From the NCBI GenBank assembly GCA_003058495.1, contig QBVC01000014.1, positions 1 to 64,000 on the forward strand: DNA of 64,000 bases, written 5' to 3'. This document shows, in pieces, positions 2,652-62,864 of this stretch (the stretch's first letter is position 1; every line of letters begins with the position of its first letter). Below the pieces are notes generated by a model. That model was not told where the DNA came from and did no database searches. It saw nothing but the letters and a program-made list of their open reading frames with translations. Source of the DNA: a gamma proteobacterium symbiont of Ctena orbiculata. Its GTDB lineage: Bacteria; Pseudomonadota; Gammaproteobacteria; Chromatiales; Chromatiaceae. The translations under genes and the position numbers were made by a program.

Positions 2652-2864
2652 TTAGGGCAATATATTGCTCATAATTTCAATAATATAGACCCTGATGACT
2701 TCAGCGCAGACGGGTGGATCCGCTCAACTGCCTGTTTAGCAGGCCACATCGCCCAATGAGACCTACTACCCTTTTCTATAATTCCAGCTGAGGTAGTCTT
2801 TCTGATTCACCCTGTGCCACAAGCACCAGATCCATGCTCAGACAACACTATAAGGAACTCGGAC

Positions 2865-3443: not shown

Positions 3444-3529
3444 GTCAGTCGACACCCATGGAATCATGATTCAAGGAAAAAGCCTGCCCTGCACGACAGG
3501 GCCGTGCTGAAGACAATGAAGCATAATCG

Positions 3530-4177
3530 TTGATTGCCTTGGCTTCACCCGACCATTCGATCCCACGCGGCGACGACGAACCATTCACTTCACCGCTGTT
3601 TCACGAAGCGATGACACGGTTCGACCACAGCAGGCGTCACGTGATTCTCGAACCGGGTCCCGTCAGCCCTGGTATCCTGGCGCTGCTGCAGGGAAAACGC
3701 TGCCGCCTCCTGGTCGCCGATGCGGCGGTGGCATTGAGTGAACTCAGCGGGAAATCATCTGAGAGCGAAACGCTGCTTCAGCAAGTGGGACCGCTTATCA
3801 ACGATTCCTGTAACGAAAAGATAGACACCGTACTCTGCTGGGACCTGCTCAACTACCTTAGCCTGCCGCTGATTGAGGCCTTCACCGCGCGTCTGGCCGC
3901 CCTCATGTCGCCCGCAGGCATGGTGCATGCCTATATCCATTCAGCGCACACCTCCATGCCTCGCCATCCTCAGCGCTATTCCGTGTTGGGTGAAGATCGG
4001 GTGGCATGCAGGAGTCAGGATCCGTCCGAGCGTAAAACACCGCGTTACAGCTATGGCGATCTGGATAAACATGCCACAGGCCTGCAAGTGGCGCGCTCGA
4101 TGTTGCTGCGCAATGGCATTCAGGAGTATCTCCTCCGGGTGCAACGCCCCAAGACAGAGCAAGAGGGTCGTCTCTAA
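3530..4177 (+). CDS. Hypothetical protein, methyltransferase-like fold
   Basis: 215 residues starting at a TTG (3530); the first in-frame ATG is 27 codons further in and would remove plausible sequence. The layout suggests a degenerate class I SAM-dependent methyltransferase: a strand with EPGPVSPGILALL where the glycine-rich SAM loop usually sits, then a CRLLVADAA strand, DTVLCWDLLNYLSL in the position of motif IV, and a C-terminal half with a LLRNGIQEYLL segment. A canonical GxGxG is missing, so catalysis is doubtful. It follows the bactofilin gene in the same direction. Function is unknown. Confidence 0.6.
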   Translation: MIALASPDHSIPRGDDEPFTSPLFHEAMTRFDHSRRHVILEPGPVSPGILALLQGKRCRLLVADAAVALSELSGKSSESETLLQQVGPLINDSCNEKIDTVLCWDLLNYLSLPLIEAFTARLAALMSPAGMVHAYIHSAHTSMPRHPQRYSVLGEDRVACRSQDPSERKTPRYSYGDLDKHATGLQVARSMLLRNGIQEYLLRVQRPKTEQEGRL

Positions 4178-4483
4178 TCAGTCTGAAATCCATCCCAGAA
4201 TCCGGCCTCACACGGTATAAAACACTTGATATCAATAAGATACACCACCTTCCCTCAGTCGCTCTGATGCTGATCCGTCAGGCTGTGTCAAAGGTGGATT
4301 GTTTAAGCCTCGAGCCAATAAAAAACCTTAAGAGATCTGTGTATTTGCCGTTATCCTATTTCATTAACGAGTGATATGCCCTGCAACGGACGCTGACGCG
4401 ACATGGCGTGATGTTGAGTCAAGGGCGTCGCTTGGCATCTCATCGGTAGTGACTATGGCTAGCCGCAATCAGACGGACGATTT

Positions 4484-32995: not shown

Positions 32996-33029
32996 ATTTG
33001 GTAGCGGGGGCTGGATTTGAACCAACGAC
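32996..33029 (-). repeat. Left attachment site: 34-bp copy of tRNA-fMet 3' end
   Basis: 34 bases identical to 62785-62818, covering the 3' end of the initiator tRNA including the CCA and most of the T-arm. After 33029 the match resumes for 9 bases (GGTTATGAG) with 5 bases missing. It is a fragment with no acceptor 5' half or D-arm, so it is not a working tRNA. Confidence 0.92.
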
Positions 33030-33479
33030 GGTTATGAGAGCGATCAATTAGACAGGTATTATACGTTTTTATCTATTGGTTTTTGTCTTTATTTGTTTAT
33101 ATACAGAAGATTATGAGCTATCATAGATTCGAAGGAATCGCCTTACCACTACACTTTATACCGAATATCAGATCATATAGCCCATAATCTGTGGTATGCA
33201 GACATTACCTTCGGGCTACTGGATATCCGGGATGATGTCCTCACCTGTCTCAGGAGAGAGATCTTATCTAGGATCCAAACCTGATTATAGATACCTTCTC
33301 CTCCGCCTCAACGCTGGCTATTGACCGGTCCAACTTCCAAAGGTTGTGCTTTATTTCAGTCTGTTGCCCACTCATCATCCTGGCGTCAATTCAGTATGGT
33401 GAGATGGATATAGTTAACACAGAGCGATAGAGTAATAGAGGTGTGTCCATCCTTAAATCGATATGGCAGACTTAGCCCT
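33030..33479. other. Island left end, no gene seen
   Basis: 450 bases between the attachment site and the first cargo gene. I find no coding frame with support and no repeat. The promoter of the gene at 33480 should lie in the final 100 bases. Confidence 0.4.
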
Positions 33480-33975: not shown

Positions 33976-36717
33976 GTGGAAGCATTGCAGCATCAGGTTT
34001 TTATCAGCTATCGTCATGAGAGCGATGAGCACGCAGCAGCGGCACGCCGCCTGGGTGAGCAACTCCAAGCTGCCAACATCAGGGTGGCTTTAGATCAGTT
34101 CTTTCTCGAAGCCCATCCCGGCGGCCCTAATAATGGCTGGCCCAGATGGTGCGAAGAGTGTGCGAACAAATCCTCCCACATACTCATCATTGCGTCGTCA
34201 GCCTGGTTTTCAGTTTATGAAGGCTCAGAGTCACCAGGTGACAGCTTGGGTGCTGCAGCAGAAGCTGATCTCTTCCGCCAGGCACTATGGGATCAAAAGG
34301 GACAGAACGAGCGCATCCGCCTTGTCTATCTGGATAACATCGAATCAAACAAGGTACCGATCCGACTTCGCGCGTGGGAGCCATTTCGCCTATTCCATGA
34401 TTTCGAAACAGAGTCTGAGCGCCTGATCAAATGGATTCAGAGCCGCCCAGTCGACTCGATTGAAAAAGAAACCATTCAACCCGAAACACCACCTCCCCTG
34501 ACGGCTGAAGAAGCGACACGAAACATCCCCAACCCCTACCCTGGGCTTGTCACTTTCAACCCCGAACAGCACCGTTATTTCTTCGGGCGCGATGAAGACA
34601 CGGCCCGGGTGATCGAGAAACTGAACGAGACCCACTTCGTCAGCCTGATCGGCCCTTCGGGCACCGGTAAGTCCTCGCTGGTGGCCGCCGGCCTGGTCCC
34701 GGCCTTGCGCGATCAGCATCCGACTCTCACCTATCTGAGTTTCAAACCCCGGACCAATCCCTTCCAACAGCTCGCCAAGGCCCTGGACGGCGCGTTGCCC
34801 GAAAATCGCTTATCGTTCGGAACTCCACGTGACGAACGCATAACGCAGGAGCTGGAAAAAGGCCCGGGCCAGGCCATAGAGGACTACTTAGGGCAATTCC
34901 AATCCCCTGTTTTACTGCTGGCAGATCAGTTCGAAGAGCTCTACACCCAAACTCCACCTGAAACCGCTTCCCGATTCCGCGAACTCCTCGAACCGCTGCG
35001 TCAGCAACAAGATCTCTATCTGGTGTTGACCCTGCGTGACGAGTTCATGCACAGACTCAAGAACTGGATGGGGGGCAAGCTATTTGACACCTCATTGGTT
35101 TCTCTAGATCCAATTGAAGGCAAGGAACAACTGTGTGCCATTATCGCCCGTCCCGCCGAAGACAATGGCGTGCCGGTAGAACCCCAGCTCATGTCAGCAC
35201 TACTCAAGGCGACTCAAGCCACCAAAGGCGCCCTGCCCCTGATAGCCCTGGCGTTGCATCAGTTGTTTGAACAACGCGATCCTCAAAAAGGTCTGACACT
35301 CGATGCCTATCAACGCATGGGCGAGTTGGAAACCGTGGTAGAGAACATCGCCGCCGACATCGACCAGGCCATCAACAGCGAACCGGGTCTGGAGCAGGCC
35401 TGCACACGGCTCTTCTCGGAACTGGCGACAGTCATCGATGACATGCCCACCCGTCGTACCACCGAGGTGAAACCACTGCGAGCCTATCCGGATATAGGTA
35501 GACTGATCGAGGCACTGCGCGCCCAGGGCTTTCTTAATGACCCGGACCCAAAGCAGATAGAACTCGCCCATGAGACCCTCCTCAGCAACTGGCCGCGTCT
35601 ACGTGAGTGGTGTAATCAGTATGCCGATAAGCTCTCCCTGCGCCGTCAGGCTGAACATGCATCCAAGGAGTGGCTGCGGGCCGTTGAAAGGGAGTCGGCT
35701 GAACCGGACGGCAAAGTTCGCGGCAGTGATACATTTCGTTGGACCTGGGAACGGCAAAGACCAACACTTAAAGGGTTGCTCGCATTAAATCATCTACTCC
35801 CGCGTGATGTACCTGGTTATTCAGACCCGGGCATCCTCGCCTGGCATGCCCTTGAACATAATATGGATGAACCCCTGCGAAGCTTTCTACACCCCGAACC
35901 CTTACGTCTGCTTGACGAACTCCAGTCCGACGAAACATCTCACCAGCGCCGCGAGGAGATCGGCCTACGTCTCAACCAGATGGGTGACCCACGCCGGGGC
36001 ATTGGCCTGGATGAGAACGGCCTACCGGACATTGAGTGGGTGGAAGTAAACGAAAAAGGTGAAGCAATTCTCGAAGCTGATCCACCTCGAACCTTCCCGG
36101 TCAAAGCTATGCGGATTGCCAAATACCCCATCACCTGGCAGCAGTACCATGCCTTTCTTAAAGCGGAAGACGGCTACCACAACCCACGCTGGTGGAATAG
36201 GTTAAAACAAAAAAAGGAACCCGGTAAAGTGCTTTGGGGTTTTGCAAACTATCCAGCCATCAATGTCTCCTGGTACGATGCCATGGCTTTTTGCCACTGG
36301 CTCAGCCACAAATTTTCGCTGATAGACAACACAACAGTCCGCCTACCCACAGAATGGGAATGGCAGTGGGTGGCACAAGCTGGTACAGAGACGAGGGAAT
36401 ATCCCTGGCGTGGTAATTGGGATACACAGCGCGCCAATACTACCGAGAGTGGCATTGGCAGAACGGTGGCAGTGGGGCTCTATCTAAAGGGTGCTTCGCC
36501 TTGTGGGGTAATGGATATGGCTGGCAATGTCATGGAATGGTGTCTAAATAAATATGATGCCCCAGAAGATACTACCATCGATGAGAGTGGGTATGCTCGG
36601 GTGTTGCGCGGTGGCTCTTGGGTCCGTAGTCGAGAGAATGCACGCGCCGCAAACCGCTACAGGAACCATCCAGGGGACCGGGGCTACTATAGGGGATTTC
36701 GTGTTGTCTGTGTGTAA
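33976..36717 (+). CDS. TIR/SEFIR - STAND NTPase - FGE/C-type-lectin protein (DGR target)
   Basis: 913 residues from a GTG start 8 bases after the previous gene, with GAGGGGAG upstream. N-terminus (1-150): a TIR/SEFIR-like domain (QVFISYRHES, then ILIIASSAW). Residues about 188-560: a STAND-type AAA NTPase with Walker A GPSGTGKSS (about 225-233) and Walker B VLLLADQFEELY. The linker MGDPRRGIGLDENGLPDIEW (about 665-684) leads into a formylglycine-generating-enzyme-like C-type lectin domain, which ends in DGR variable repeat 1 (VLRGGSWV...GFRVVCV). By family knowledge such proteins sense a ligand with the lectin end and fire the TIR effector. The lectin lacks an obvious oxidase Cys pair, so it is a binding fold, not a sulfatase activator. 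Confidence 0.88.
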   Translation: MEALQHQVFISYRHESDEHAAAARRLGEQLQAANIRVALDQFFLEAHPGGPNNGWPRWCEECANKSSHILIIASSAWFSVYEGSESPGDSLGAAAEADLFRQALWDQKGQNERIRLVYLDNIESNKVPIRLRAWEPFRLFHDFETESERLIKWIQSRPVDSIEKETIQPETPPPLTAEEATRNIPNPYPGLVTFNPEQHRYFFGRDEDTARVIEKLNETHFVSLIGPSGTGKSSLVAAGLVPALRDQHPTLTYLSFKPRTNPFQQLAKALDGALPENRLSFGTPRDERITQELEKGPGQAIEDYLGQFQSPVLLLADQFEELYTQTPPETASRFRELLEPLRQQQDLYLVLTLRDEFMHRLKNWMGGKLFDTSLVSLDPIEGKEQLCAIIARPAEDNGVPVEPQLMSALLKATQATKGALPLIALALHQLFEQRDPQKGLTLDAYQRMGELETVVENIAADIDQAINSEPGLEQACTRLFSELATVIDDMPTRRTTEVKPLRAYPDIGRLIEALRAQGFLNDPDPKQIELAHETLLSNWPRLREWCNQYADKLSLRRQAEHASKEWLRAVERESAEPDGKVRGSDTFRWTWERQRPTLKGLLALNHLLPRDVPGYSDPGILAWHALEHNMDEPLRSFLHPEPLRLLDELQSDETSHQRREEIGLRLNQMGDPRRGIGLDENGLPDIEWVEVNEKGEAILEADPPRTFPVKAMRIAKYPITWQQYHAFLKAEDGYHNPRWWNRLKQKKEPGKVLWGFANYPAINVSWYDAMAFCHWLSHKFSLIDNTTVRLPTEWEWQWVAQAGTETREYPWRGNWDTQRANTTESGIGRTVAVGLYLKGASPCGVMDMAGNVMEWCLNKYDAPEDTTIDESGYARVLRGGSWVRSRENARAANRYRNHPGDRGYYRGFRVVCV

Positions 36718-36718
36718 C
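36598..36718 (+). repeat. DGR variable repeat VR1
   Basis: 121 bases, same length as the template at 39114-39234 and aligned without gaps, running to the stop codon of the TIR-STAND-lectin gene. Template AAC codons are replaced by CGT, TAC, GAC and GGC. Changes at template adenines and at other bases are about equally many, so the copy is older or came from another template. Confidence 0.85.
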
Positions 36719-36936: not shown

Positions 36937-37704
36937 ATGAAAGGTTCACCTGCAACACATATACATAAAACGATCAAATTATTGCCAGATATTGACTGGG
37001 TGGAGATCCCGGCCGGGGAGTTTATCTATGGAGAAGAAGAACAACTGCGGTTAACCTTGGATAATTTCTATATCACCCGCTACCCGATCACGAACGTTCA
37101 GTATCAAACTTTCATCGACGATGGAGGATATGAGGACGACCGCTGGTGGAACAGTATAACGAATAAATCCCTAGAAAAATCGTACTTTGTCCAACCCAAC
37201 CGCCCCCGGGAGACTGTCTCCTGGTATGAGGCAGTTGCCTTCTGCCGCTGGCTGTCGCAGCAAATGGGCTACGAGATACGCCTGCCGACAGAGCAGGAAT
37301 GGGAAAAAGCGGCCCGGGGCACGAATGGGTGGGAATATCCCTGGGGCAATGGTTACCAGGTCGGATTTGCCAATGTGGATGAAAGGGAACCACATGTTGG
37401 ACCAAGCGATCTTTTTCGAACCACTGCTGTGGGACTCTACCCTCAGGGGGCTTCGCCCTATGGGGTCATGGATATGGCCGGCAATGTCTGGGAGTGGTGT
37501 TTGAATAAACTTGATGATCCTGATGACACCACAATCGATGAGAGCGGAGATGAACGGGTGTTACGCGGCGGTTCTTGGATTGACTTTCCTGAACATGCAG
37601 TTGCATATTTACGCCGCGGACTTCATCCAGAGAACCGTAATAAACCTTGGGGTTTTCGTATTGCCTGCATGACCCCTTTTCCCCATAGATCATCAAACCA
37701 CTGA
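36937..37704 (+). CDS. Stand-alone FGE/C-type-lectin domain protein (DGR target)
   Basis: 255 residues consisting almost entirely of one formylglycine-generating-enzyme-like lectin domain (LPDIDWVEIPAGEFIYGEE, RYPITNVQYQTFIDDGGY, RLPTEQEWEKAARG, GVMDMAGNVWEWCLN), ending in variable repeat 2 and a short tail. It is very close to the C-terminal domain of the protein encoded at 39350-42088. No effector domain, signal peptide or strong ribosome site is seen at the start, so it is either a free diversified binder or a gene that has lost its 5' part. It lies 219 bases after the TIR-STAND gene, in the same direction. Confidence 0.78.
   Translation: MKGSPATHIHKTIKLLPDIDWVEIPAGEFIYGEEEQLRLTLDNFYITRYPITNVQYQTFIDDGGYEDDRWWNSITNKSLEKSYFVQPNRPRETVSWYEAVAFCRWLSQQMGYEIRLPTEQEWEKAARGTNGWEYPWGNGYQVGFANVDEREPHVGPSDLFRTTAVGLYPQGASPYGVMDMAGNVWEWCLNKLDDPDDTTIDESGDERVLRGGSWIDFPEHAVAYLRRGLHPENRNKPWGFRIACMTPFPHRSSNH
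37555..37675 (+). repeat. DGR variable repeat VR2
   Basis: 39 codons matching the template in length and frame (VLRGGSWIDFPEHAV...GFRIACMT). It is more diverged than VR3 and VR6, including in the constant positions. The gene continues 8 codons past it, unlike the other targets. Confidence 0.75.
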
Positions 37705-37852
37705 CCACTGTACCAGTAACAAATGAGTGCGTTGCGTGGAACTCATGTATCAACAATCCAGTGAATGCACACATCTTCAATCGAAGATGAATATTGGCAT
37801 AAGTATATGATTGGCCTCCTTTTTACTGACGGTGCATAAAGAGTCAGAGTAG

Positions 37853-38107
37853 ATCTTTCCAGTCACTAAGGGTGTTCTCTGGCTGGGATTTGTCATATTC
37901 CACAACTAGCGGATGAAAAAAACCCAGAAACTACGCCACACGTTCTACCGGTTTACGGAACGGTTCGTTGCCTAGTATTACGGCGCGATCAGCTTCGTGA
38001 AGCTTGATGCCTACAATCAGGGCTGAATCAGCTATGTTCGCAACGCCAACAGATTGGGATTGCAGGAGCAGATACTGAGCTGGCTCGTGTGGGAGCCTGT
38101 CGCATAG
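37853..38107 (+). pseudogene. Reverse transcriptase C-terminal remnant with in-frame stops
   Basis: One frame reads PVTKGVLWLGFVIFHN-stop-RMKKTQKLRHTFYRFTERF and, after more stops, ISYVRNANRLGLQEQILSWLVWEP. This matches the C-terminal half of the reverse transcriptase on the other strand ([56 protein letters not shown]). At least three internal stops are present (near 37904, 37961 and 38021), so it is dead. It shows that a second DGR reverse-transcriptase copy once lay here in the opposite orientation. Confidence 0.82.
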
Positions 38108-38197: not shown

Positions 38198-38290
38198 TCA
38201 GCGGATAATGGGGGACAAACTAACAACACGAAAACCCCCGCCGAAGCTCCGGATATCGGGTCGATTCCCGTTGCGGTCGGTGGCACGCGC
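38198..38290 (-). pseudogene. Orphan DGR variable repeat VR3 with its stop codon
   Basis: On the minus strand it reads ARATDRNGNRPDIRSFGGGF then RVVSLSPIIR and a stop. Against the template, 11 of 13 differences between 38290 and the GAT/GGT codon before the constant end fall on template adenines. The upstream part of its gene is gone: at 38291 it abuts a plus-strand lectin fragment head to head. A short hairpin (38140-38152) and a T-run lie past it on the minus strand. Confidence 0.82.
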
Positions 38291-38291
38291 A

Positions 38292-38525
38292 CCCTATGGG
38301 GTCATGGATATGGCCGGCAATGTCTGGGAATGGTGCCTGAATAAATTGAATAACCCACAAGATACCACCATAGATGGGAGCAGGAGTAGTCGGGGGTTAC
38401 GGGGTGGCTCTTGTTTCCGCACACCAGAAGATGCTCGCACTACTAACCGCAATGGGGCTCATCCCGTGTTCCGCGATGACTACAGAGGTTTTCGTGTTGT
38501 TAGTTTGTCCCCCATTATCCGCTGA
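38292..38525 (+). pseudogene. Truncated FGE/lectin gene end carrying VR4
   Basis: The plus strand resumes at YGVMDMAGNVWEWCLNKLNN, the conserved last third of the lectin domain, and runs through variable repeat 4 to VSLSPIIR and a stop. The first two thirds of the domain are missing. The C-terminal SPIIR is shared with VR3 on the other strand, so the two pieces derive from similar genes joined by inversion or recombination. Confidence 0.82.
38391..38511 (+). repeat. DGR variable repeat VR4
   Basis: 121 bases aligned without gaps to the template. About 16 of 36 differences are at template adenines, so this copy has also drifted at other bases, as expected for a repeat in a dead gene. Confidence 0.75.
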
Positions 38526-38594: not shown

Positions 38595-39100
38595 TCAGAT
38601 TCTCTCACCGTAAGCGTCCGGTCCCCATACAAACCGGCTCAATATCCGTTCCCGTAATCCCCAACTGTCGGCGTAGCGAAGATGGTTGATCCAGCCCTGA
38701 ACAGAGGCATCAAACTCCGCGGAGCTGATCGCTTCGCAACACCAGGCATCGAACCGTTCCGACAAGCGGTGGCAGGTGTGGCGCAACTTCCGACCCTTTA
38801 TCCGACGGTATTCGGGATATACAACGAACCCCAGCCAGGGAATGCCTCGCTCGACAGGAGAGACCTGGGCCGACTCCTCATACACCCTCAGGCGAAAAGT
38901 CTCCAACCGTTCGCATATCGCCCTTTTCCATTGCCAGAGTTCCCGCTTACTGTCCGAGAAGAGTGTAAAATCATCCACATAGCGCAGATAGGCCCGACAA
39001 CCCAACTCCCGCTTGATGAAGAGATCCAAGGGATGGAGATAACAGTTGGACCAGAACTGGGAGGTCAGATTGCCGAGGGAGCATGCCGGTCTGTTGAAAC
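38595..39100 (-). pseudogene. DGR-type reverse transcriptase, C-terminal half only
   Basis: The open frame covers the palm from the [20 protein letters not shown] motif (GNLTSQ is typical of DGR and group II-like enzymes) through the catalytic [11 protein letters not shown] to the thumb ([21 protein letters not shown]). The finger region with the first catalytic Asp is missing: just before GNLTSQ the frame runs straight out of the template repeat. No ribosome site or start is apparent. I read it as a 5'-truncated, inactive gene, though it has no internal stop, so the truncation may be recent. An intact enzyme elsewhere in the genome could still serve this template. Confidence 0.85.
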
Positions 39101-39113
39101 GCGAGCGGAGTGT

Positions 39114-39234
39114 GGGACGCACAGACAACACGAAAATCCCTGTTGTTGTTCCGGTTGTCGGGTTGATTCCTGTTGCGGTTGGCGGCACGCGCATTCTCTG
39201 GATTGTTGATCCAGGCGCCGCCGCGCAACACCCG
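39114..39234 (-). repeat. DGR template repeat (TR)
   Basis: 121 bases on the minus strand that, if read in frame with the variable repeats, give [20 protein letters not shown] followed by [19 protein letters not shown]. The unusual density of AAC/AAT codons is the hallmark of a DGR template, because adenines are the mutated positions. It lies between the end of a target gene (VR5 at 39378) and the reverse transcriptase half-gene, the classic VR-TR-RT order. It has no coding role itself. Confidence 0.92.
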
Positions 39235-39298
39235 TTGTGTACTGACCGGATTGCCCCGCCGGTAACCTGGCAGGGATCATAATAGCAAAATAAATCGC

Positions 39299-39319
39299 GA
39301 GCGCCGCATAGTGGCGCTC
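39299..39319 (-). repeat. Hairpin after VR5
   Basis: GAGCGCC and GGCGCTC pair around a 7-base loop. On the minus strand it is followed by GCGATTTATTTTG. Same element as after VR4 and VR6. Confidence 0.7.
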
Positions 39320-39349
39320 TCATTTGGCGGTGATTCAGTAGTCAGCAGC

Positions 39350-42088
39350 TCATTGTGACAATGCTCTGCGATTAATGGGGGACGTACAGACAATACGAAA
39401 ACCCTGACCTTGATTCCGGTGGTGTGGAAGATCCCAACCTCGGCGTGTAGCACTCGCATTCGCTGGAGCGCCAACCCAAGAGCCACCGCGTAATACGCGA
39501 TAAGCCCTCTTATCATCAATAGTGTTATTTTCCGGGTCGTTATATTTAGTTAGACACCATTCCCAGACATTTCCGGCCATATCCATGACCCCATAGGGCG
39601 AAGCCCCCTGGGGAAAGAGCCCAACTGCCGTAGTGCTTGATAGTCTAAATGGCCCGACTGTCCTCGTCTTTTCATCCACATTGGCATATCCGATCTGGTA
39701 ACCCTCACCCCAAGGATATTCCCGTCCGGCCGTGCCCCTGGCCGCCTTCTCCCACTCCTGCTCCGTGGGTAGGCGTATCTCGTAGCTCAACTGTTGCGAA
39801 AGCCAATGGCAGAAAGCAACTGCCTCGTACCACGAGACCCTATCCCAAGGACGGTTGGGTTGATTCCAGCGTGACTTTTCGAGGTTTTGTTTAGTTAAGC
39901 CATTCCACCAGCGTTCATCTTCATATCCCCTATCGTCGATGAACCTCTGATACTGGGCGTTGGTGATGGGGTAGCGGGCGATAAAATAGCTATCCAGCGT
40001 TAGCCGTTGTTGTTGCTCGTTTTCGCCATAGATGAACTCCCCACCCGGGATCTCCACCCAGTCGATGTCGGGCAAGCCCTGCTCATCCAGCCCGACGCCG
40101 GGTCGTGGATCTTCCAGCTGCGCCAGTTCGTCCCCGATTTTCAGGCGGCGTTCCGGTTTGGTTTCACTGTTGTCTATCTCATCCAGCAGGGCCTCTATCT
40201 CCGGGGGGTACTCGATTCTCTCGAACTCCCGCACCCCGACCCCTGGCCTTGTATCGCCCATTTCCGCCAGTTGATCACCGATATTCAGACGTTCTTCCGG
40301 TGTGGTCTGCGGGTCTTCAATCTTTTTCAGCAGTTCGTTGAAAAGATCATTTTCTGGTGCTTGACTCAGGCCCAGGGCCTGTTCACAACGACGAATCAGT
40401 TCATCCCAAGGGATGGGCTCTTGCACGAATTCAATCGCCTGAACCATGGTCAGGTATCGTGGAATCTCGGCTTTTTCAACCCGAATGGGAATGATCGCCT
40501 TGCCATGACTCGAAGCGAATTCCAACTCACGAGAGACAAATTGACTATTCATCAAATCCTCTGTCACCACGACTATCAGACAGGCACTTTGCGCCAGCGT
40601 TTGTCTCATTGCATCGCTCCAGGCGTCACCCGGTAGTATGACATCGTCAATAAGCCGAATAGTGAAGCCATGACTCGCAAGATAGCTTTGAATACTATTA
40701 GCCCACTCTTTGCCATGCTCTGAATGGGTAATGAAAAAATCCTTCCCCGTATGGACTGTTCCCTCAACCCAACTGCCGATTTGTGCCGCCAACTTGCGGG
40801 CCAATTCATCCGCGCTGTCCTGCTGCCAATTGCGAATATCGATAACCTGTCCCGGAGAGGAGAATCCGCTCGGAGCCTGGATGTCATCGATCTGCAGTAA
40901 CAGGCTGCCAGCAGCATTGGCTTTTTGTTCCTTGCTCCTTTCATTCCAGAGCCTCTGCATGCCTTGCGACCACAGACGCATGACCCGAGTCGCCGGATCT
41001 GTCATAGCGGTGATGGGTGCAAATGGTTTTTCTTCGATCAATTCAACATCGATCGCCTGGGTCTTCAGCCAATCTTGAATCTGCATCGCCTGGCTTTCAT
41101 CGGTCTTACTGAAGGCCAGATAGAGCTTTGGCTTGTCCTGCTGCTTTTGTGGCGGCGACTGTGGCAACTGGTTGATCTGCAGACGATAGTGTCTTCCACT
41201 ACGGGTGGTCATTTCGATCTGAGTCGACTCGGCGTCGAGTTCAAACAGGCTTCCCTGGCTGACTCGCACCCATGGCGTCTCCAGTCCGACGGCGCGAATA
41301 TGCAGGCGGGCCGGTAGCGGGCTGTCAAATGCAATTGTCTCCTGTCCATTGGCGGGTTCGGAAAAGTGGAGGATGTTCTTCCCGCGGACAGCGTCGTGAC
41401 GAAGCTCAACCGCCAACCTGTCGCCCTGGCGCTCGGGGATGGCTTTCACCATCCAGTCCGGCAGCCGGACTGGTTCCACGTTATCACTCCAACCGCCCGG
41501 ATCGTGCAGGCTATCGAAGGCAAAATTGACCAGGTGTTTGCCATCACCGGCATTGATCTGCTCTTCGTTCAGTATGGCCGTGCTGTACTTGATGCGGCGG
41601 GCCAGTTCCAGAAGTTTTGATCGTTCGGTTTCTCCACCCTCGGCATAGCGGGAAATTAGGCGCAACATATCCCGATAGACCTGGATCAATCCTTCGTTGT
41701 TTTGGCTCAAGGCAAAGAAGTAGAGGTCCCTCTCGAGCCTGTCCAGTGGTTTCCAATGCCGGGTCAGTCTCTGGCACTGTTGCCAAAGCGCCTCGAGATC
41801 AAACGATTCGGGGTCGGCCCTGACCTTATCCGCAAGCAGTCCTGCCATGCCAGGGCTGAAGATAAAATTACTGGTGTTACGCGCATGTACCAGGTTACTG
41901 AACCAGAGCTGGTGCTCGTACAGAGCATCCAACTGCGGCAGAAAGGTCAGGCGGATGCCGCGCAGCAGGCGCGGCTCGACCCGTGGCACGAAGACGACGT
42001 GGCAGGCCAGTCCTAGCAGTTCCGGAGCTTCCTGTTCAAACGCCTGGAACAGGTCGATCTCCCTTTGCGAAACGGGCGTCAGACTCAT
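39350..42088 (-). CDS. VMAP-like / TIR / FGE-lectin protein of a ternary conflict system (DGR target)
   Basis: 912 residues from the ATG at 42088, which overlaps the vWA stop codon (ATGA); the frame is open further upstream inside the vWA gene, but coupling favours this start. Residues 1-315: helical N-terminal region of the type that accompanies MoxR-vWA pairs (QREIDLFQAFEQEAPELLGL), then a beta-rich part. About 320-450: a TIR-like fold (KPKLYLAFSKTDES). About 450-575: a second, clearer TIR domain (DFFITHSEHGKEW, ACLIVVVTEDLMNSQF, and a glutamate in SRELEF). Two copies of an ERxLxIGDxLAxxxDxRPGVG linker follow, then an FGE/C-type lectin ending in VR5. Inference: a sensor-effector held by the ATPase/vWA pair. 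Confidence 0.85.
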   Translation of the reverse strand: MSLTPVSQREIDLFQAFEQEAPELLGLACHVVFVPRVEPRLLRGIRLTFLPQLDALYEHQLWFSNLVHARNTSNFIFSPGMAGLLADKVRADPESFDLEALWQQCQRLTRHWKPLDRLERDLYFFALSQNNEGLIQVYRDMLRLISRYAEGGETERSKLLELARRIKYSTAILNEEQINAGDGKHLVNFAFDSLHDPGGWSDNVEPVRLPDWMVKAIPERQGDRLAVELRHDAVRGKNILHFSEPANGQETIAFDSPLPARLHIRAVGLETPWVRVSQGSLFELDAESTQIEMTTRSGRHYRLQINQLPQSPPQKQQDKPKLYLAFSKTDESQAMQIQDWLKTQAIDVELIEEKPFAPITAMTDPATRVMRLWSQGMQRLWNERSKEQKANAAGSLLLQIDDIQAPSGFSSPGQVIDIRNWQQDSADELARKLAAQIGSWVEGTVHTGKDFFITHSEHGKEWANSIQSYLASHGFTIRLIDDVILPGDAWSDAMRQTLAQSACLIVVVTEDLMNSQFVSRELEFASSHGKAIIPIRVEKAEIPRYLTMVQAIEFVQEPIPWDELIRRCEQALGLSQAPENDLFNELLKKIEDPQTTPEERLNIGDQLAEMGDTRPGVGVREFERIEYPPEIEALLDEIDNSETKPERRLKIGDELAQLEDPRPGVGLDEQGLPDIDWVEIPGGEFIYGENEQQQRLTLDSYFIARYPITNAQYQRFIDDRGYEDERWWNGLTKQNLEKSRWNQPNRPWDRVSWYEAVAFCHWLSQQLSYEIRLPTEQEWEKAARGTAGREYPWGEGYQIGYANVDEKTRTVGPFRLSSTTAVGLFPQGASPYGVMDMAGNVWEWCLTKYNDPENNTIDDKRAYRVLRGGSWVGAPANASATRRGWDLPHHRNQGQGFRIVCTSPINRRALSQ
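39378..39498 (-). repeat. DGR variable repeat VR5
   Basis: 39 codons aligned to the template, VLRGGSWVGAPANASATRRG and so on to GFRIVCTS. It is the copy nearest the template, yet well diverged at non-adenine positions, so it has not been overwritten recently. The gene ends 7 codons later. Confidence 0.8.
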
Positions 42089-43089
42089 GGAGCGACCCGA
42101 TGGCCGATGCCGATCAGGCTTTTGACCTGGCTGGCGCTGGTTGCGGGTGACCAGTGGAACAGATAGGGATATCCTCCCAGATTGTTGCTCAGCCAGTCGT
42201 CGTGCTCCCAGGGGATCAGAAAGATCAGGGGGCATTGGGCCTTTTCACAGCGATCGATGAATGCCCGCCAGCGCCGTTGTAGCCGGTAGGTGGAGCGTTG
42301 GTTCGGCAGGCCGAAGTCGGTCGCCACCAGATTGGGGATTCCGCCTAGTGGCTTCCAGGTTGCTGGAGTATCGGCATCCGTCCAGCATTCCGCCTGCTCG
42401 GGATTGTCGGTGAATTGGAAACGGTTCACCAGCGCCTTACCCAGGGTTTTGTTCAACTGATTGTGGAGGGCCTCTAAATCGTTCCACCAGGGGATCATCG
42501 AGTCGGAAAAGTCGAGCAGCAGTTGGCAGCCGTGTTCCAGTGAACCCGTCTCCTGATAAGGAAAGCGACTTGGCAGGATACCCTTACTGGATTGCCGAAT
42601 CAGTTTAACGAGGTCAAGTTTCCGACTTTCCCGTACCGTTTGCAGAAGTGCGGTCAACAAACCGCGGCTGGTATTGTCCAGGAACAGCGAAGAAGGATCG
42701 ATTGCGCTGTATTCGTGCTCATCGAAGCGTTCAAAGTTCAGGTCGGGTTGCTGGGCCTCATCTGCAGGCGGAGTCAGATCTTCCAATCGGCTCAGCGTTC
42801 CAGGTAATGTGCCATCGGGTAGTTCTATGCGTGGTGCAGGCGCGGTGGGTGTAGAGATCGTTTTGTTGGGCGAAGGCAACGATTGCCTTGCCCGGATGCG
42901 ATTTCTGGTACCCGTCACCGGCATGGAACGGTTTGTTTTAACCTTGTGCTGCTGTGGATTCTGCTGACTGAAACCGAGTGCCGCGGCAATCTTCCTGGCC
43001 TGTTCCTCACTCTGCCACGGCAGATCACTGAGTGCCTGGATCAGGTCATCCAGATGAATCTCGCTGCCTTGGTTGCGAGAAGAAGCCAT
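42085..43089 (-). CDS. vWA domain protein of MoxR-vWA-VMAP system
   Basis: 334 residues. A disordered, Pro/Gln/Asn-rich N-terminal third precedes a von Willebrand A-type domain: the MIDAS-like DxSxS in LLLDFSDSMIPWW (about residue 190), a VATDFGLPNQ segment and a C-terminal strand QCPLIFLIPWEHDDW. Such proteins bridge a MoxR ATPase to a target. The gene lies 8 bases after the ATPase and overlaps the VMAP-like gene by 4, so all three are one translationally linked operon. Confidence 0.85.
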   Translation of the reverse strand: MASSRNQGSEIHLDDLIQALSDLPWQSEEQARKIAAALGFSQQNPQQHKVKTNRSMPVTGTRNRIRARQSLPSPNKTISTPTAPAPRIELPDGTLPGTLSRLEDLTPPADEAQQPDLNFERFDEHEYSAIDPSSLFLDNTSRGLLTALLQTVRESRKLDLVKLIRQSSKGILPSRFPYQETGSLEHGCQLLLDFSDSMIPWWNDLEALHNQLNKTLGKALVNRFQFTDNPEQAECWTDADTPATWKPLGGIPNLVATDFGLPNQRSTYRLQRRWRAFIDRCEKAQCPLIFLIPWEHDDWLSNNLGGYPYLFHWSPATSASQVKSLIGIGHRVAP

Positions 43090-43097
43090 GGCGATGC

Positions 43098-44027
43098 TCA
43101 GGCCTTCTTACGCAATATCGAGTTCTCGACCTGACGCCATACCCGTGAAGACTCATCGGGGCTGATGTTACGCGCCATGCAGACCTTCAGTGTATCGAGA
43201 AACTCACTGGTCCCGGGAACCCGCAGGCCTTCGGTCTCTTCCCTGTCTCGGTAATCGAGAATCTTATTCACGATCTTCTCGAGCAATGTCTCATCAATTG
43301 TTTCACCCAAGTGGCTTTTGGCGATCTTCTTAAGATCATCCGCACCTGGCTCTTCGATGTAGAGGGAGACGCAGCGACGCAGGAAGGCCGCAGGCAGTGC
43401 GCGCTCCTGGTTCGATGTGATGATGGTGAATATCTGTGAGGTCTGGTCTGCATCGATGAAGGAGCCATCGCGCAACTCGATGCGCCGTCGCTCGATGGTG
43501 TCGAGCAGGTCGTTGGGCAGATCGGGTTCTGCCTTGTCGATTTCATCGATCAGCAATAGCGTATTGTTGGCACCGTCTTTCTGCTTCCGCTCCACGCCTT
43601 TGAAAGCGGTGCTCTCCCGCTGATGATCCTCTCCCCTGTTTTGTGCAGACACACGATTGAACGCCCACCAGAAAATACCGGGGCGGTTGTATTCCCAGTC
43701 CGACTTGAGTGAAACGCCTTTGACACCGGCGCTGTGGGCGTCGTGAAGGCGCTTCAGATTATCGTATTCGTTGGTGAGATCCTCCAGCGTAGTGCGGGAG
43801 GTGATGGATTTGTTCAAAAAATGCCAACCCTTGATCGCAGCCAATGCCTCTGCCAGACGGCTCTTGCCGCAACCAGGTTTGCCTTCGACAAGCAGTGGAC
43901 GCCCTGTGATATGAGCAACATCAACGGCAATGGCGATGTCTTCGGTGAACACATAGGGCTCGACATCGCCCACGCGGGAAAAGGTATCTTCAGGTGGCAG
44001 ATCGAAAAAATCGGGTTTGTAATTCAT
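43098..44027 (-). CDS. MoxR-type AAA+ ATPase
   Basis: 309 residues. Walker A in VEGKPGCGKSRLAEA (about 43-57), a Walker B-like LLLIDEIDKAEPDLP (about 156-170), sensor-1 region TIITSNQERALPAAFLRR with the arginine finger, and a helical lid with GTSEFLDTLK. MoxR proteins act as chaperones for vWA partners. Context: the TIR gene is 8 bases upstream and the vWA gene 8 bases downstream, matching the ternary architecture described for prokaryotic conflict systems. All key residues appear intact. Confidence 0.92.
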   Translation of the reverse strand: MNYKPDFFDLPPEDTFSRVGDVEPYVFTEDIAIAVDVAHITGRPLLVEGKPGCGKSRLAEALAAIKGWHFLNKSITSRTTLEDLTNEYDNLKRLHDAHSAGVKGVSLKSDWEYNRPGIFWWAFNRVSAQNRGEDHQRESTAFKGVERKQKDGANNTLLLIDEIDKAEPDLPNDLLDTIERRRIELRDGSFIDADQTSQIFTIITSNQERALPAAFLRRCVSLYIEEPGADDLKKIAKSHLGETIDETLLEKIVNKILDYRDREETEGLRVPGTSEFLDTLKVCMARNISPDESSRVWRQVENSILRKKA

Positions 44028-48278: not shown

Positions 48279-49799
48279 ATGGCACTGTATGCTTTCGATG
48301 GAACCTGGAATGACTCAAGCGCACCAGATGATGAACGCGACATAAGAAACGATACAAACGTTCACCGCTTTCGATTACGTTATGGAGAAAATCACCATTA
48401 TGTTGATGGTGTAGGCACAAGATATAGTATCATTGGCAAGATCGTAGGAGGCGTAACGGGAGCTGGAGCACAAAAGCGGATCGAAGAGCACTTTCAAGCC
48501 TTGAAAGAAAACTTTGCCGCCGGTGACAAAACTATTGATATCATTAGATACAGCCGAGGCGCAGCTATTTCAAGGATGTTCGTTCATTATATCGACCGTA
48601 ATTTCGATGACTTGATCGATAATAGTGGCAATCACCTCCCACATCCTCCAAAAATCCGGTTCCTTGGCTTGTTCGATACTGTTGCATCCTTCGGTATTCC
48701 CTGGAATGAAGACGAGCACAATTTCGAAACAAATATTCCCGAAATCGTTGAAAACACCTTCCACGCAATGGCTCTTGACGAAACTCGTGAAACTTTTGGT
48801 ATCGAGCGTTGCCTGGGTAATAGAGACAAAATCACCGAGGTCTGGTTTCGTGGCGGTCACGGTGATATCGGTGGCAACGCAACATTTACCGGCCATAAAG
48901 GGAAAGAGTCTAATCGTAGAAGATCAAATATCGCTCTTGAGTGGATGTTGAATAAAGCTCGCGCCTGCGGACTACCCATCATAACGGCAGATGAAGCGAC
49001 CCATATTGAAACTGACACAGATGCACATGTGACAGCTCAAAAAGATCGACTTAGCATCGGTAATGTCGGCACATTATCACGCCGTATACACATTGGCGAT
49101 CTCGTACACTACAGCGTCGAAGATACCAAACTGACACACAGTATTGATGGCCGCTTACTTCGCCGTATCGAAGTGCTGACACGCATAGAAGATGAAACTC
49201 TTGAACAATGCGCTAAAGCAATGAACTGGACACCACCGTTTGAGCTCGACCATAGTCCAGACAATGTGCGTATAACTGAATCCCCACCTTCAATCGTTAG
49301 ATTGAGTCTTCGCCGCTATCCATTCGATATATTGCCAGCCCGTACATGGGACGCCTGGATGAGACATTGGGAAATCGAAAACCCAGGCATTGAAGATAGA
49401 CATATCGACGAATTCTGGGCGCCCAACGACGCAGATCGTGCGCTCGCATGGGACATTTACGTAGAATTACAGACGCGCATTGCAGTACAAGAACTGGCAG
49501 ACGATGAAGGCGACGATACTACCGCTCTGAAAAGTATCGCAAAACTATTCAGTCTGTCGCGAGAAAGCATGCGTAAGCATGGTGTTAACTGCTCCAATAC
49601 AGGTTCGCTGGTGACCTCCTATCTGAACCAGAAAGTGCGAAATTTTACTGCCAAATGGCACAAGGTTTCACTCGCAGAGAAATGGAAAGAAAACCCGGAT
49701 ATCAAACACCCTGAATTCAGAGAAGAGTTAAAACAGTTACAACCTGTACTTGGCACCTTGGCTGGTGCTTTATCGGACTTAGCGGACGCACGCCTATAA
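48279..49799 (+). CDS. DUF2235 alpha/beta hydrolase with extra C-terminal domain
   Basis: 506 residues, start after AAAAGGAGAAAC. Residues 1-330: DUF2235 (relatives include T6SS phospholipases): ALYAFDGTWNDS, HYVDGVGTRYS, a nucleophile elbow reading IIRYSRGAA, an acidic FLGLFDTVASFG and VWFRGGHGDIGG with the likely His. The elbow is RYSRG instead of GFSRG, so the first Gly of GxSxG is lost. Residues about 360-506 match the small protein at 33480-33968. No signal peptide or secretion gene is nearby, so it is probably an intracellular lipase-like effector (inference). Confidence 0.82.
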   Translation: MALYAFDGTWNDSSAPDDERDIRNDTNVHRFRLRYGENHHYVDGVGTRYSIIGKIVGGVTGAGAQKRIEEHFQALKENFAAGDKTIDIIRYSRGAAISRMFVHYIDRNFDDLIDNSGNHLPHPPKIRFLGLFDTVASFGIPWNEDEHNFETNIPEIVENTFHAMALDETRETFGIERCLGNRDKITEVWFRGGHGDIGGNATFTGHKGKESNRRRSNIALEWMLNKARACGLPIITADEATHIETDTDAHVTAQKDRLSIGNVGTLSRRIHIGDLVHYSVEDTKLTHSIDGRLLRRIEVLTRIEDETLEQCAKAMNWTPPFELDHSPDNVRITESPPSIVRLSLRRYPFDILPARTWDAWMRHWEIENPGIEDRHIDEFWAPNDADRALAWDIYVELQTRIAVQELADDEGDDTTALKSIAKLFSLSRESMRKHGVNCSNTGSLVTSYLNQKVRNFTAKWHKVSLAEKWKENPDIKHPEFREELKQLQPVLGTLAGALSDLADARL

Positions 49800-49957: not shown

Positions 49958-52261
49958 CTAAGTCTCAATCTTCTCTTTTGCAATATCCTTCTCTAATTTC
50001 AATTTACAGAGCCCTTTTCCTATTAACCCTGCAACCTCACGAAAGCTTTGAGAAGTCCACAGTCTCTCGTTTTCATCCTGCGATAAACCATTATCTGGCA
50101 AATTTCTATCTATTTTACGAGAATCTATAAACTCCCATAATCGATTCAACTGTCTATCTGGAGCAAGATAGGATGCAGCCCTCTCGATATCGTTACCTAG
50201 CATCTGCATCATTTCCGGATTACGCGAATTTTGAACAAAATAGTTAAACGAAAGCTCTTCTGGTTTTTGCTTAGGTGGTTCATTGAGCCATCTAGCAACC
50301 ATCCCTGCAGCTCCGCGAGATGCGCCAACTATAAATGATGGCTGCCCTGCCTCGAATGCACGCAGGATCTCTTCCCACACACCGGGAATAATCCCGGAAA
50401 AATCATGTATTTTTCCTCCTATGAAAAGATGGGCCAAAGGAGTAAATTCAAAGTTCTCAAAATCAGGAGTATCGCAATGAATTTTGCTACATACCATCTT
50501 GCGCATCGCGTTCAAACAGAGCGCGGTATTTAGGCGTTGCTCTGGCGTTTTCTTATCTTCATCGAAAACAGGAGATTCAATTAGCTGTTGGATACCTGCA
50601 TCTTCTTGAGTAACACGGATGAATGAACAGGTATTGATCCATTGTGCCTCTTCCTTGATGCTAAATTTCGTAGAATATGGCCATGCACTAAGATTAAATA
50701 ATCGAGGTGCGGGGGCTAATACCTCTGATTTCGTTGAATCTTTTTTCTTATCTCTTCGTTCCTTCTTTTCTGTATTTCTTTCGGCTAAAAGGTAATCTAG
50801 AAAGGTCTCAGTAAAATTGATTCGGCTTTCCCATGCCTCTTTCTCATTTTGCCCCCATGATGGTAGTGAACCACCATACAATAACGATATACCCTGTTTG
50901 AAGGCAGGCCTCAGAATTGCGCGTAACAACTCCACCGTATGATCATCACTAATACCTGCAGTGAGAATATCGGTCGATTCCGACACCGATACCCCTAGCA
51001 CTTCTCCAGAAAAGTAATTCTCTATCTTTATCTTATCTGGCATTAATTCCTTACATAGTTCGGCATCGTAATTGGCGCCAAAAGCTTTAAAGCGCATTGT
51101 ATAGATGTCCTGCATTCCTCTTTTTTCCACCCCTGTCAATCCATGCCCAGGATGATGAATAATCACGCCATCACGTGATCCATACATTATTTTCGCGTCA
51201 CGGCAAACATATTCGACCATGACGGGATCTGGAGGCCGATTCACCAGTATATTAATTTTTTCGTCAGAAGGTTCTATATTTCTTTTTGCTGCTTGCGCTA
51301 AAAGCCGATAGAAACTTGAAAAAAGAATTTCTCTTAGAATCGTAACCACAGCTCTACGCGCTGCATCATCAGTCCATTGCAAACAAGATGCATGACCTAG
51401 CTCTGGAATCGTTCTAGCTGACTTATTACCTGCAAAATTAATCACAACTACAGCAGGCATTATCGAATACAAAATACCGTCAGTCTCCTCCGGATCACCA
51501 ATCCTGTGTGGCTTTAGAAAATCCCGTATCTCTTTACGACACCAAGGCCTGTCTGCGTAATGATCTCCCTGAATAACAAGCAAACCTGCCGAATCAGTCT
51601 CTAACGCCTCCTTAATCTCATCGCTGAAGTCATGACCGTAGTTGATATCGTTTTCATCAAAGAAAGTATGGCATTGGGTTTCAGTTTGAATGTAATGTTT
51701 TATCTTCTTTGGAATCTCTGTACCATCTGCTTTGGCATGGCTGAGAAAGATCTTTATTGGCGTTGTTTTCTTTCCTACCACGACTTCACGTAAAATCAAG
51801 CCCATTGCTTCCGTCAATTTAATCAACATAATTTCGTAATCTATCTTGCTCTTTTCATCAAGATGACGGATAAAATTAAGTCGGTTGACGACTGATGGCA
51901 TTTGATATGCCGTCACATCCAAGGCGATTGGGAGGATCTTATAATCAGCATTTGACTGACTTCCTCTCTTTTTATGTTGAATCTCATTCGCTTTGATAAC
52001 GAGGGACTCTACATAACGCCGCCATGCCAACGACGCCACCATGTTAGGCTCCACTAGAGGAACTATGATATTGAGATCACAATCATTGTCCCTTATAGAT
52101 GGAATATCTTCTTCTTTGTCCTTCCAACAGCGGAAATAGACAGGTATCCCCTCCCCTGTGGACAGTCTAAACCAATGATATATATGACGAGCTAGTTTTA
52201 TTCCATCCTTATATGCAGCATGCCATAATACATAGATGCGTACTGGTGTTCTTACTACCAT
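49958..52261 (-). CDS. Double TIR-like protein with SLOG-type domain
   Basis: 767 residues, start after GACGGAGAT. N-terminus (1-150) is a TIR-like fold of unusual type (IYVLWHAAYKDG, NIIVPLVEPNMV). About 168-300: a second TIR domain (IKIFLSHAKADG, AGLLVIQGDHYADRPWCRKEI, with Cys and Glu at the expected catalytic helix). The middle is unassigned. About 430-640 resembles a SLOG/LOG Rossmann domain (LLYGGSLPSWG, FIVGASRGAAGMVARW). SLOG domains bind nucleotide-derived signals such as cyclic ADP-ribose variants. Having TIR and SLOG in one chain suggests a self-contained signal maker and sensor (inference). Confidence 0.78.
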   Translation of the reverse strand: MVVRTPVRIYVLWHAAYKDGIKLARHIYHWFRLSTGEGIPVYFRCWKDKEEDIPSIRDNDCDLNIIVPLVEPNMVASLAWRRYVESLVIKANEIQHKKRGSQSNADYKILPIALDVTAYQMPSVVNRLNFIRHLDEKSKIDYEIMLIKLTEAMGLILREVVVGKKTTPIKIFLSHAKADGTEIPKKIKHYIQTETQCHTFFDENDINYGHDFSDEIKEALETDSAGLLVIQGDHYADRPWCRKEIRDFLKPHRIGDPEETDGILYSIMPAVVVINFAGNKSARTIPELGHASCLQWTDDAARRAVVTILREILFSSFYRLLAQAAKRNIEPSDEKINILVNRPPDPVMVEYVCRDAKIMYGSRDGVIIHHPGHGLTGVEKRGMQDIYTMRFKAFGANYDAELCKELMPDKIKIENYFSGEVLGVSVSESTDILTAGISDDHTVELLRAILRPAFKQGISLLYGGSLPSWGQNEKEAWESRINFTETFLDYLLAERNTEKKERRDKKKDSTKSEVLAPAPRLFNLSAWPYSTKFSIKEEAQWINTCSFIRVTQEDAGIQQLIESPVFDEDKKTPEQRLNTALCLNAMRKMVCSKIHCDTPDFENFEFTPLAHLFIGGKIHDFSGIIPGVWEEILRAFEAGQPSFIVGASRGAAGMVARWLNEPPKQKPEELSFNYFVQNSRNPEMMQMLGNDIERAASYLAPDRQLNRLWEFIDSRKIDRNLPDNGLSQDENERLWTSQSFREVAGLIGKGLCKLKLEKDIAKEKIET

Positions 52262-52601: not shown

Positions 52602-53837
52602 CTATTCAGTACGTGTAATTTTAACCCTCAAGAATCCAGAGTTATTGCCGTATTTTGACCGCATATCATTCGCGAAAAGATAAAGATCAGCACTCTTAGA
52701 TGGTTGAAATGGTGCCTTTTGGTCACCAATATAGATTAAACAATCATCTTCATCGCCTAGCGCAGCAATCAAGGCAAACCAATTTGCATCCGGTTCCCTG
52801 CGTAGCCTCTCTGCTAACTCGACGATACCCTCCTGATACCACGGCAGCTCATTCGATTGCCAACCATCTGGGCCACACTCAACATCACCATCTTTCCAAC
52901 CATCAACATCAACGACTTCACAAACATAAGTCACATCTTCAACAACTCTCACTCCCGTCCAATTATAGAGTGCCTTGGCGGATACCTTACATTGATGACT
53001 TTCACCGACTTTCAATTCAACTGCGTGCGCAGTTGGGTGGATTATATCGTCAGCTCCCCGCTCTCGCCGCGGATCGAGTTGAATATCTTTATTCTGAAAA
53101 ATCGGTGCGAACTTATTTGTCTCGCTATAACGCTTTGCAGTAGCCTTCTCGTCATCAAATTCAATACCACAGGACCTGGCCTGTTCTATCATCCATTGCA
53201 ATGCAATGTTCGAGCGGGAGATTTCGCCGTTGCCACCACCTATATCACTATGTACTCCGCGGAACCATACCTCTTGAACATTTGCATGACTACACCCAGG
53301 ATCGAGACGAAGAACTCTGAAGGCTTCACGTCGCTCATCCATTGCCATCGCGTGGTAACAGTTATCAACACAGACATCAAGCGTGCTTAAATTCCAACCT
53401 AAATTAATACTCTGAAAATCAATAATCGTATCAAATGACAGACCGAAGGAACCGACCATATCCCAGATACCTAAAAAGCGTACCCTGGCACTCTTGTCGA
53501 AGTTACCATCAGCCAACTCAACTCCCCGTTCACCAATCAGATTGGCAAAATGTACAGCCAACGCCGCTCCGCGACTAAAACCAATGATGTCAATCTCTTT
53601 ATCACCATTCTGCCAGTTGCTGGACAACTCCTCATACATCTCCTCTATTCGAGTCTTCCCTCCACTCCCAAACAGACCGCCAAACAGCGCACCAATCTTT
53701 CCAAAACGAGTACCCACACCTGCGATATATTCAACCGATCGTCCTTTGTATAGCTCAGCAAACCGCACTACATTCGTATCGACCGTTGGCTCATCTTCAT
53801 CAGAATTCCATGTTCCATCAAATGCATATAGCGCCAT
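52602..53837 (-). CDS. DUF2235 alpha/beta hydrolase
   Basis: 411 residues from the ATG at 53837, which has a textbook GAGGAGGAATTG site; an in-frame upstream start at 53915 is rejected. Features: ALYAFDGTWNSDEDE, EYIAGVGTRFGKIG, nucleophile elbow IDIIGFSRGAAL (an intact GxSxG), acidic FLGIWDMVGSFG and VWFRGVHSDIGGG. The last 120 residues are a beta-rich domain with KVGESHQCKVSAKAL, unlike the paralogue at 48279. It is probably a lipase or esterase-type effector. It lies between a TIR-SLOG gene and a lectin-type TIR-STAND gene, all on the minus strand. Confidence 0.85.
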   Translation of the reverse strand: MALYAFDGTWNSDEDEPTVDTNVVRFAELYKGRSVEYIAGVGTRFGKIGALFGGLFGSGGKTRIEEMYEELSSNWQNGDKEIDIIGFSRGAALAVHFANLIGERGVELADGNFDKSARVRFLGIWDMVGSFGLSFDTIIDFQSINLGWNLSTLDVCVDNCYHAMAMDERREAFRVLRLDPGCSHANVQEVWFRGVHSDIGGGNGEISRSNIALQWMIEQARSCGIEFDDEKATAKRYSETNKFAPIFQNKDIQLDPRRERGADDIIHPTAHAVELKVGESHQCKVSAKALYNWTGVRVVEDVTYVCEVVDVDGWKDGDVECGPDGWQSNELPWYQEGIVELAERLRREPDANWFALIAALGDEDDCLIYIGDQKAPFQPSKSADLYLFANDMRSKYGNNSGFLRVKITRTE

Positions 53838-54098
53838 CAATTCCTCCTCATTCCTAGTTATTGCTATGTGCAAATTTCTATACCACCGGTAATTTGCATA
53901 TCGAAATTTCATCATAGGATAGCAATTGTAAAAATTCTATTAGCAATGATTGTCGATGGCTACAATTTGGATAGAGATGCAACAGTCTCCTGTCTGGGCA
54001 TATTCACTAATCCACTGACAATTTGACGCTCATGGTGTGGCTACACATATTGTGAATAATCAAGCGGTAATCATCCTATACGGGCGGTAGGGGAATAA

Positions 54099-62787: not shown

Positions 62788-62864
<77 letters not shown>

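Follow-up and report, generated by a model that had tools for sequence, protein, structure and literature searches.

The 121-bp repeat at positions 39,114 to 39,234 raises the question of whether a diversity-generating retroelement (DGR) is still rewriting the receptor genes around it, or has left only its products behind. It lies in the window, the 64,000-nucleotide stretch of contig QBVC01000014.1 analysed here, from a gamma proteobacterium symbiont of Ctena orbiculata. The source genome (assembly GCA_003058495.1) is a 4.53-Mb draft in 51 contigs, 99.12% complete, and this one draft assembly is the evidence base; comparisons within the genus used 22 genomes, including the source genome. An earlier note on the window had read the repeat as the Asn-codon-rich template of a DGR beside a reverse transcriptase (RT) half-gene, with six further copies of the unit, one of them partial, at the 3′ ends of FGE/C-type-lectin genes of TIR/STAND/MoxR type or of a free lectin.

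All seven units are present, the one noted at 39378 framing best at 39379–39499. Units 36598, 37555, 39379 and 54376 form the 3′ ends of FGE-sulfatase-domain genes with open frames, unit 38391 ends a truncated FGE fragment, and unit 38212, only a fragment, runs in the opposite direction. The products carry TIR_2, SEFIR/TIR and nSTAND1 domains or, in one case, the FGE domain alone (Pfam), so the description of the targets stands as well. TIR, nSTAND1 and AAA_5 domains occur in targets and neighbours (Pfam), and we take the neighbouring gene 43098–44027 to be a MoxR gene. The repeats and their genes are as follows, with differences from the template (TR1) counted at template adenines (A) and at all other positions (non-A); A and B are the two cassettes described further below.

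33976–36717, plus: target-type gene of 913 aa, SEFIR/TIR, nSTAND1 and FGE (Pfam)
36598–36718, plus: variable repeat, probably old; 13/29 A, 16/92 non-A
36937–37704, plus: free FGE-domain protein of 255 aa (Pfam)
37555–37675, plus: variable repeat of this free lectin gene, VR1 position of cassette B; 17/29 A, 27/92 non-A
38212–38299, minus: partial variable repeat, VR2 position of cassette B, from inverted repeat I8; 13/24 A, 7/64 non-A
38391–38511, plus: variable repeat of the truncated FGE fragment, convergent with the RT like the VR2 of relatives, VR2 position of cassette A; 16/29 A, 24/92 non-A
39114–39234, minus: TR1, template repeat, with A-restricted difference to 54376 and a CACA end
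39350–42235, minus: target-type gene of 961 aa, TIR_2 and FGE (Pfam), VR1 position of cassette A
39379–39499, minus: variable repeat of this gene, which adjoins TR1, with no fit to TR1; 20/29 A, 21/92 non-A
54362–57238, minus: target gene of 958 aa, TIR_2, nSTAND1 and FGE-sulfatase (Pfam)
54376–54496, minus: variable repeat fitting TR1, in the final codons of this TIR-nSTAND1-FGE gene; 16/29 A, 2/92 non-A

Genome-wide blastn with the 121-nt template returned 54376 (E 1.6e-33), 36598 (E 8.4e-20), 38212 (E 5.3e-13; 88 nt, template positions 34–121) and 38391 (E 8.7e-4), the remaining matches elsewhere in the genome being at most 24 nt long. Units 37555 and 39379 are absent from this list; local blastn recovered 39379 over its full length (E 4e-9) and 37555 as two separate matches (best E 3e-4).

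The pattern of differences tells the units apart. In 54376, none of the 72 template G or C positions and only 2 of the 20 T positions differ, both of them T-to-G changes, giving an adenine excess with a one-sided Fisher p of 2.3e-10. When the comparison is reversed and 54376 is taken as the template, 0/13 A and 18/108 other positions differ; the signal is gone, hence the direction from TR1 to 54376 is the right one. The ends of the repeats also differ: TR1 is followed by ACAC and its end thus reads CCCACAC, giving CACA (in full CACAC, not CACAT) at the place where CCCAT stands in all the other repeats but 37555 (five of six), and these distinct 3′ ends may mark the homing site. These data confirm 39114–39234, on the minus strand, as a genuine DGR template. 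By eye, hairpins are seen ~50–70 nt behind several variable repeats; they could be retrohoming stem-loops or terminators.

Repeats 36598, 37555, 38391 and 39379 also differ from TR1 preferentially at its adenines (p ≤ 0.005). Note, however, that comparisons between variable repeats give some low p values too, e.g. 4e-5 for 36598 against 54376; the adenine excess alone is thus weak evidence, and it is the low non-A count that singles out 54376. The four repeats have so many non-A differences (16–27 of 92) that TR1 did not write them recently, and among the codons hit at non-A sites a good part are synonymous (6/14 in 36598, 10/22 in 37555, 10/20 in 38391 and 8/19 in 39379). They appear to be old members of this family of variable repeats, written from other templates. 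One template serving four live targets, as the earlier note had it, is therefore rejected; apart from the 38212 fragment, 54376 is the one repeat that fits. Differences lying away from template adenines were to count against the reading of the note: 54376, the single intact target that fits, passes this check, the 38212 fragment passes it for the most part, and the remaining four repeats do not pass it cleanly. A history without any DGR, in which all the repeats are simply old FGE paralogues, would suit these four, with their non-A differences and many synonymous codons, yet the adenine-restricted pattern refutes it for 54376. It is also opposed by the template-type end of TR1, by the DGR-type RT fragment beside TR1 and by relatives that share the layout and have RT and Avd complete, and we consider it scarcely credible.

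The FGE body of the 54362–57238 gene is also the most distant of the four, sharing 81/206, 85/222 and 82/223 identical residues with those of 36598, 37555 and 39379, respectively, and 37555 and 39379 share 156/224. Its FGE domain matches PvdO (PDB 5hha, E 5.7e-28) and Treponema denticola variable protein 1 (PDB 2y3c, E 8.8e-14), the latter presumably a DGR-diversified protein; the window fuses this lectin fold to TIR-nSTAND1. We found no close orthologue of this domain in the 21 other same-genus genomes: at a threshold of E 1e-20, G016 alone gave a match, 55% over 167 residues.

Between the repeats lie what is left of the machinery:

37746–37768, plus: probable second-template remnant, 21/23 identical to TR1, AAC and AAT codons present
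37799–38107, plus: second RT remnant, cassette B, 46% identity, 6 stops
38595–39092, minus: C-terminal part of an RT in open frame, YVDD kept, from alignment with full-length relatives
39093–39110, minus: approximate deletion scar, TR1 abutting mid-RT; relatives have avd, spacer and RT N half here

On the minus strand the order is the 39379 gene, TR1, the RT part and then 38391 on the opposite strand (cassette A); on the plus strand it is the 37555 gene, the probable template remnant, the RT remnant and, running the other way, the 38212 fragment (cassette B). From order and strand, these look like two tail-to-tail cassettes of which B is the older, the 38212 repeat and the FGE fragment being fused head-to-head at ~38292–38299. 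Aligned with the 354-aa RT of a Lamellibrachia symbiont (L081), the RT remnant of cassette B shows 37% identity and four stops. Because TR1 does not fit its own neighbour 39379, it may come from another cassette by recombination.

The RT half-gene of cassette A is indeed no more than a C-terminal part. Its open reading frame (38595–39323, minus strand) covers Pfam RVT_1 positions 111–204 of 205, under the curated cut-off, and aligns with the Lamellibrachia symbiont RT from residue 201 over 148 residues at 67.6% identity. Alignment with relatives shows ~200 N-terminal residues to be missing, a half that presumably contains the first catalytic motif. The remainder is open over 165 codons, which neither demonstrates nor rules out upkeep, as only ~0.5 new stop is expected at 2% divergence. 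The RT sequence begins within ~20 nt of the end of TR1, and the distance from the start of the template to the start of the RT query is 142 nt here versus ~1,230 nt in the Lamellibrachia symbiont; hence ~1.1 kb is gone, holding avd, the TR–RT spacer and the RT N half.

The lost parts were not recovered elsewhere in the assembly. RVT_1 matches in the contigs of the source genome are the DGR fragment and an RT-Cas1 fusion, nothing else; an RT N-half query found only that fusion on the other contigs; and the search for another DGR RT gave only the six-stop remnant at 37799. The bAvd profile has no match in the source genome, with matches in four of four named DGR genomes and none in the same-genus genome G004, and a separate avd search of the source genome, made without a positive control, was also empty. 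Use of TR1 in trans by another RT of the genome would have precedent, since Dore et al (2024; PMC10907252) report such service in trans for DGR targets, and one other full RT is present (contig C25:48956–49579; L001). That RT, however, is the RT-Cas1 fusion, an open frame of 697 aa carrying RVT_1 and Cas_Cas1 domains; in the N half it shares only 27% identity with the DGR RT, and avd and the priming spacer would still be missing, which makes such a rescue very improbable. Fusions of this type are part of CRISPR systems that may take up spacers from RNA.

The locus therefore combines an A-restricted TR/VR pair, a variable repeat at the 3′ end of a C-type-lectin/FGE gene and distinct TR/VR 3′ ends with neither a complete DGR-type RT near the template nor an Avd-type accessory gene, and since the RT is incomplete and avd absent we file it among DGR remnants and not among complete DGRs. 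For the reconstituted BPP-1 DGR, inactivation of RT, Avd or TR is reported to leave repair at ~1e-9, and the spacer to recruit RT-Avd, hold the priming adenine and prime the cDNA (PMC12875486). With RT, Avd and spacer needed there, and the RT cut and the other two missing here, the element is probably inactive by that standard. The earlier note mentions neither this probable inactivity nor the second dead cassette and the tRNA island.

A scan of genome contigs with the RT fragment gave 52 loci, of which 42 were run through a TR–VR finder and 10 left out, no RT frame having been accepted. The nearest relatives of the RT are found in Accumulibacter, Nitrosomonas, Thiohalocapsa and others. A same-strand variable repeat lies within 450 nt upstream of the template in 27/42 loci, an opposite-strand one close behind the RT in 14/42, and 15/42 have at least two variable repeats; contig ends make these counts lower bounds, and some loci have no repeat or one in an odd place (e.g. 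L067, L076). Multi-target templates are thus not the rarity that the earlier note supposed, all the more so as targets in trans are published. By eye, an antisense ORF of ~115 aa lies between template and RT in seven of seven loci (L081, L035, L042, L055, L036, L082 and L068); it is Avd by NCBIfam NF033474 in 4/4 tested, three above cut-off, and bAvd by Pfam in 3/3 tested, so that profiles support five of the seven loci directly and L082 via its genome. The template reads CACAT where the variable repeat reads CCCAT in 12 of the 14 pairs of relatives listed, the two pairs of L058 having a gap or N there. Four scanned targets of relatives are SEFIR/TIR-NACHT-FGE, NACHT-FGE, EAD8-NACHT-FGE and TIR-nSTAND1-FGE proteins.

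The layout VR1, TR, antisense avd, RT and convergent VR2 is complete in Nitrosomonas marina (L055), the Lamellibrachia symbiont and Leucothrix pacifica (L042), with STAND-FGE targets as in the window; the 925-aa TIR-nSTAND1-FGE target of N. marina has the architecture of 54362–57238. In these three the RT is in one piece, whereas in the window the TR–RT stretch is cut in each of the two cassettes. Over the wider set, the RT is in one piece in 39/48 loci and broken in nine, four more of the 52 being cut by contig ends. Two of the nine are doubtful, with a stop near the query end (L072) or a gap in frame (L068). Among the seven clearer cases, L082 and L079 keep clean template–variable pairs, the latter (Thiohalocapsa) with only 5 A differences, L039, L047 and L060 have none or a weak one, and L054 and L084 lie outside the TR–VR scan. 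In L082, from Rhabdochromatium marinum, the RT is wrecked (residues 91–170 lost, frame breaks) and two variable repeats fit the template with 1 and 0 non-A and 17 A differences in 70-nt windows; the other RT matches there are only 26–30% identical, with no closely related RT besides. Its region spans ~2520–4440 and, unlike the window, keeps avd; match places in G025, of the same family as the source genome, equal those of L082. RT loss after recent activity is thus seen in more than one case.

All DGR parts of the window lie in a 29.8-kb island enclosed by two tRNA-Met ends:

32999–33038, plus: imperfect duplicate of the tRNA-Met 3′ end (sequence repeat), left island end
62788–62864, minus: intact tRNA-Met, right island end; empty site in same-genus G004

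The tRNA-side flank is found in 22/22 genomes of the genus and the left flank in four (the source genome, G004, G010 and G020). The flank matches are 117 nt apart in G004, an empty site, 49 kb apart on one contig in G010, and on two contigs in G020, with short tRNA-end matches at G010:C10:14559 and G020:C27:8992; from the differing spacing and these matches, the tRNA-Met site is probably an insertion hotspot with other islands in G010 and G020. The RT gave no match in any of the 21 remaining genomes of the genus. A phage source (a single IMG/VR contig, 56%) and a plasmid source (35 plasmid records matched, all <60% identity) were rejected. The island also carries two Tle1-like phospholipase-domain genes beside TIR genes (48279–49799, 52602–53915), a TIR fused to a SLOG cluster2 domain (LD_cluster2; 49958–52261) and, by the tRNA end, a 657-aa ORF with no Pfam or NCBIfam match (60261–62234), which we would guess to be the island's divergent recombinase.

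The reading that very probably holds is a broken DGR with a fixed receptor left as its last product. The DGR would have arrived with the island at tRNA-Met; template RNA from 39114–39234 would have been copied by an Avd-bound, adenine-error-prone RT, and the cDNA would have taken the place of the matching 3′ end of an FGE/C-type-lectin gene, with changes in codons that have an A in the template. The last clear product would be the remote repeat 54376–54496, a putative randomised C-terminal sensor for the TIR-nSTAND1-FGE receptor. A later deletion of ~1.1 kb immediately 3′ of the template would then have taken out the RT N half together with avd and the priming spacer, freezing the receptor, in the assembled genome, into one inherited like an ordinary gene; the tail-to-tail sister cassette would have decayed earlier.

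Note that the deletion could also have arisen in assembly, or belong to one variant while others are intact. The misfit of TR1 to its neighbour 39379, the two T-to-G differences of 54376 and the CACAC end of TR1 also tell against the broken-DGR reading. If the DGR were still active in part of the population, with deleted cells living beside intact ones and the assembly having taken the deleted variant, the nearly perfect fit of 54376 to TR1 at non-A sites would be expected, and in Thiohalocapsa PB-PSB1 intact and disrupted DGR variants are described as coexisting within single aggregates (PMC10907252). No contig of the source genome carries a second RT N half or avd, and we hold this explanation to be unlikely, though still to be reckoned with; it overlaps the broken DGR and differs from it on whether intact cells exist today.

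Dore et al (2024) describe clade 5 DGRs of Thiohalocapsa PB-PSB1 and other aggregating bacteria, with FGE/CLec sensors on TIR, STAND (nSTAND1/NACHT) and MoxR-associated conflict proteins, two-target loci, degenerate loci in which parts are lost or pseudogenised, and trans targets whose matching template lies elsewhere in the genome (PMC10907252). The window shares with them the FGE sensors on TIR/STAND conflict proteins and the degenerate locus; unlike the loci described there, no complete locus was found in the source genome. The likeness to clade 5 is one of targets and of nearest RT relatives. The gap between template and mid-RT has the look of a simple deletion. Among the sources consulted, theirs is the nearest account of RT loss in such DGRs. 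The window is a further member of this published kind, in a dead state and otherwise ordinary.

Returning to the broken DGR, its loss might have been favoured: the RT would be lost repeatedly, and soon after a useful sensor has been written, a fixed proven receptor being worth more than a changing one, and islands would spread the frozen receptors. The two window cassettes cut in the same stretch, and the broken RTs with clean pairs in L082 and L079, would be consistent with this; plain decay would predict as much, and no clean pair came from three further broken loci, so that we regard the idea as doubtful. If it were true, RT loss selected after writing would resemble the fixing of a proven receptor. 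Roux et al (2021) state that their own approach would miss remote targets (PMC8144416), and frozen sensors like that of 54376 would escape screens for complete DGRs. Overall, the element shows the end of a DGR's life, in which a receptor written by targeted mutagenesis would be left fixed after the machine was lost.
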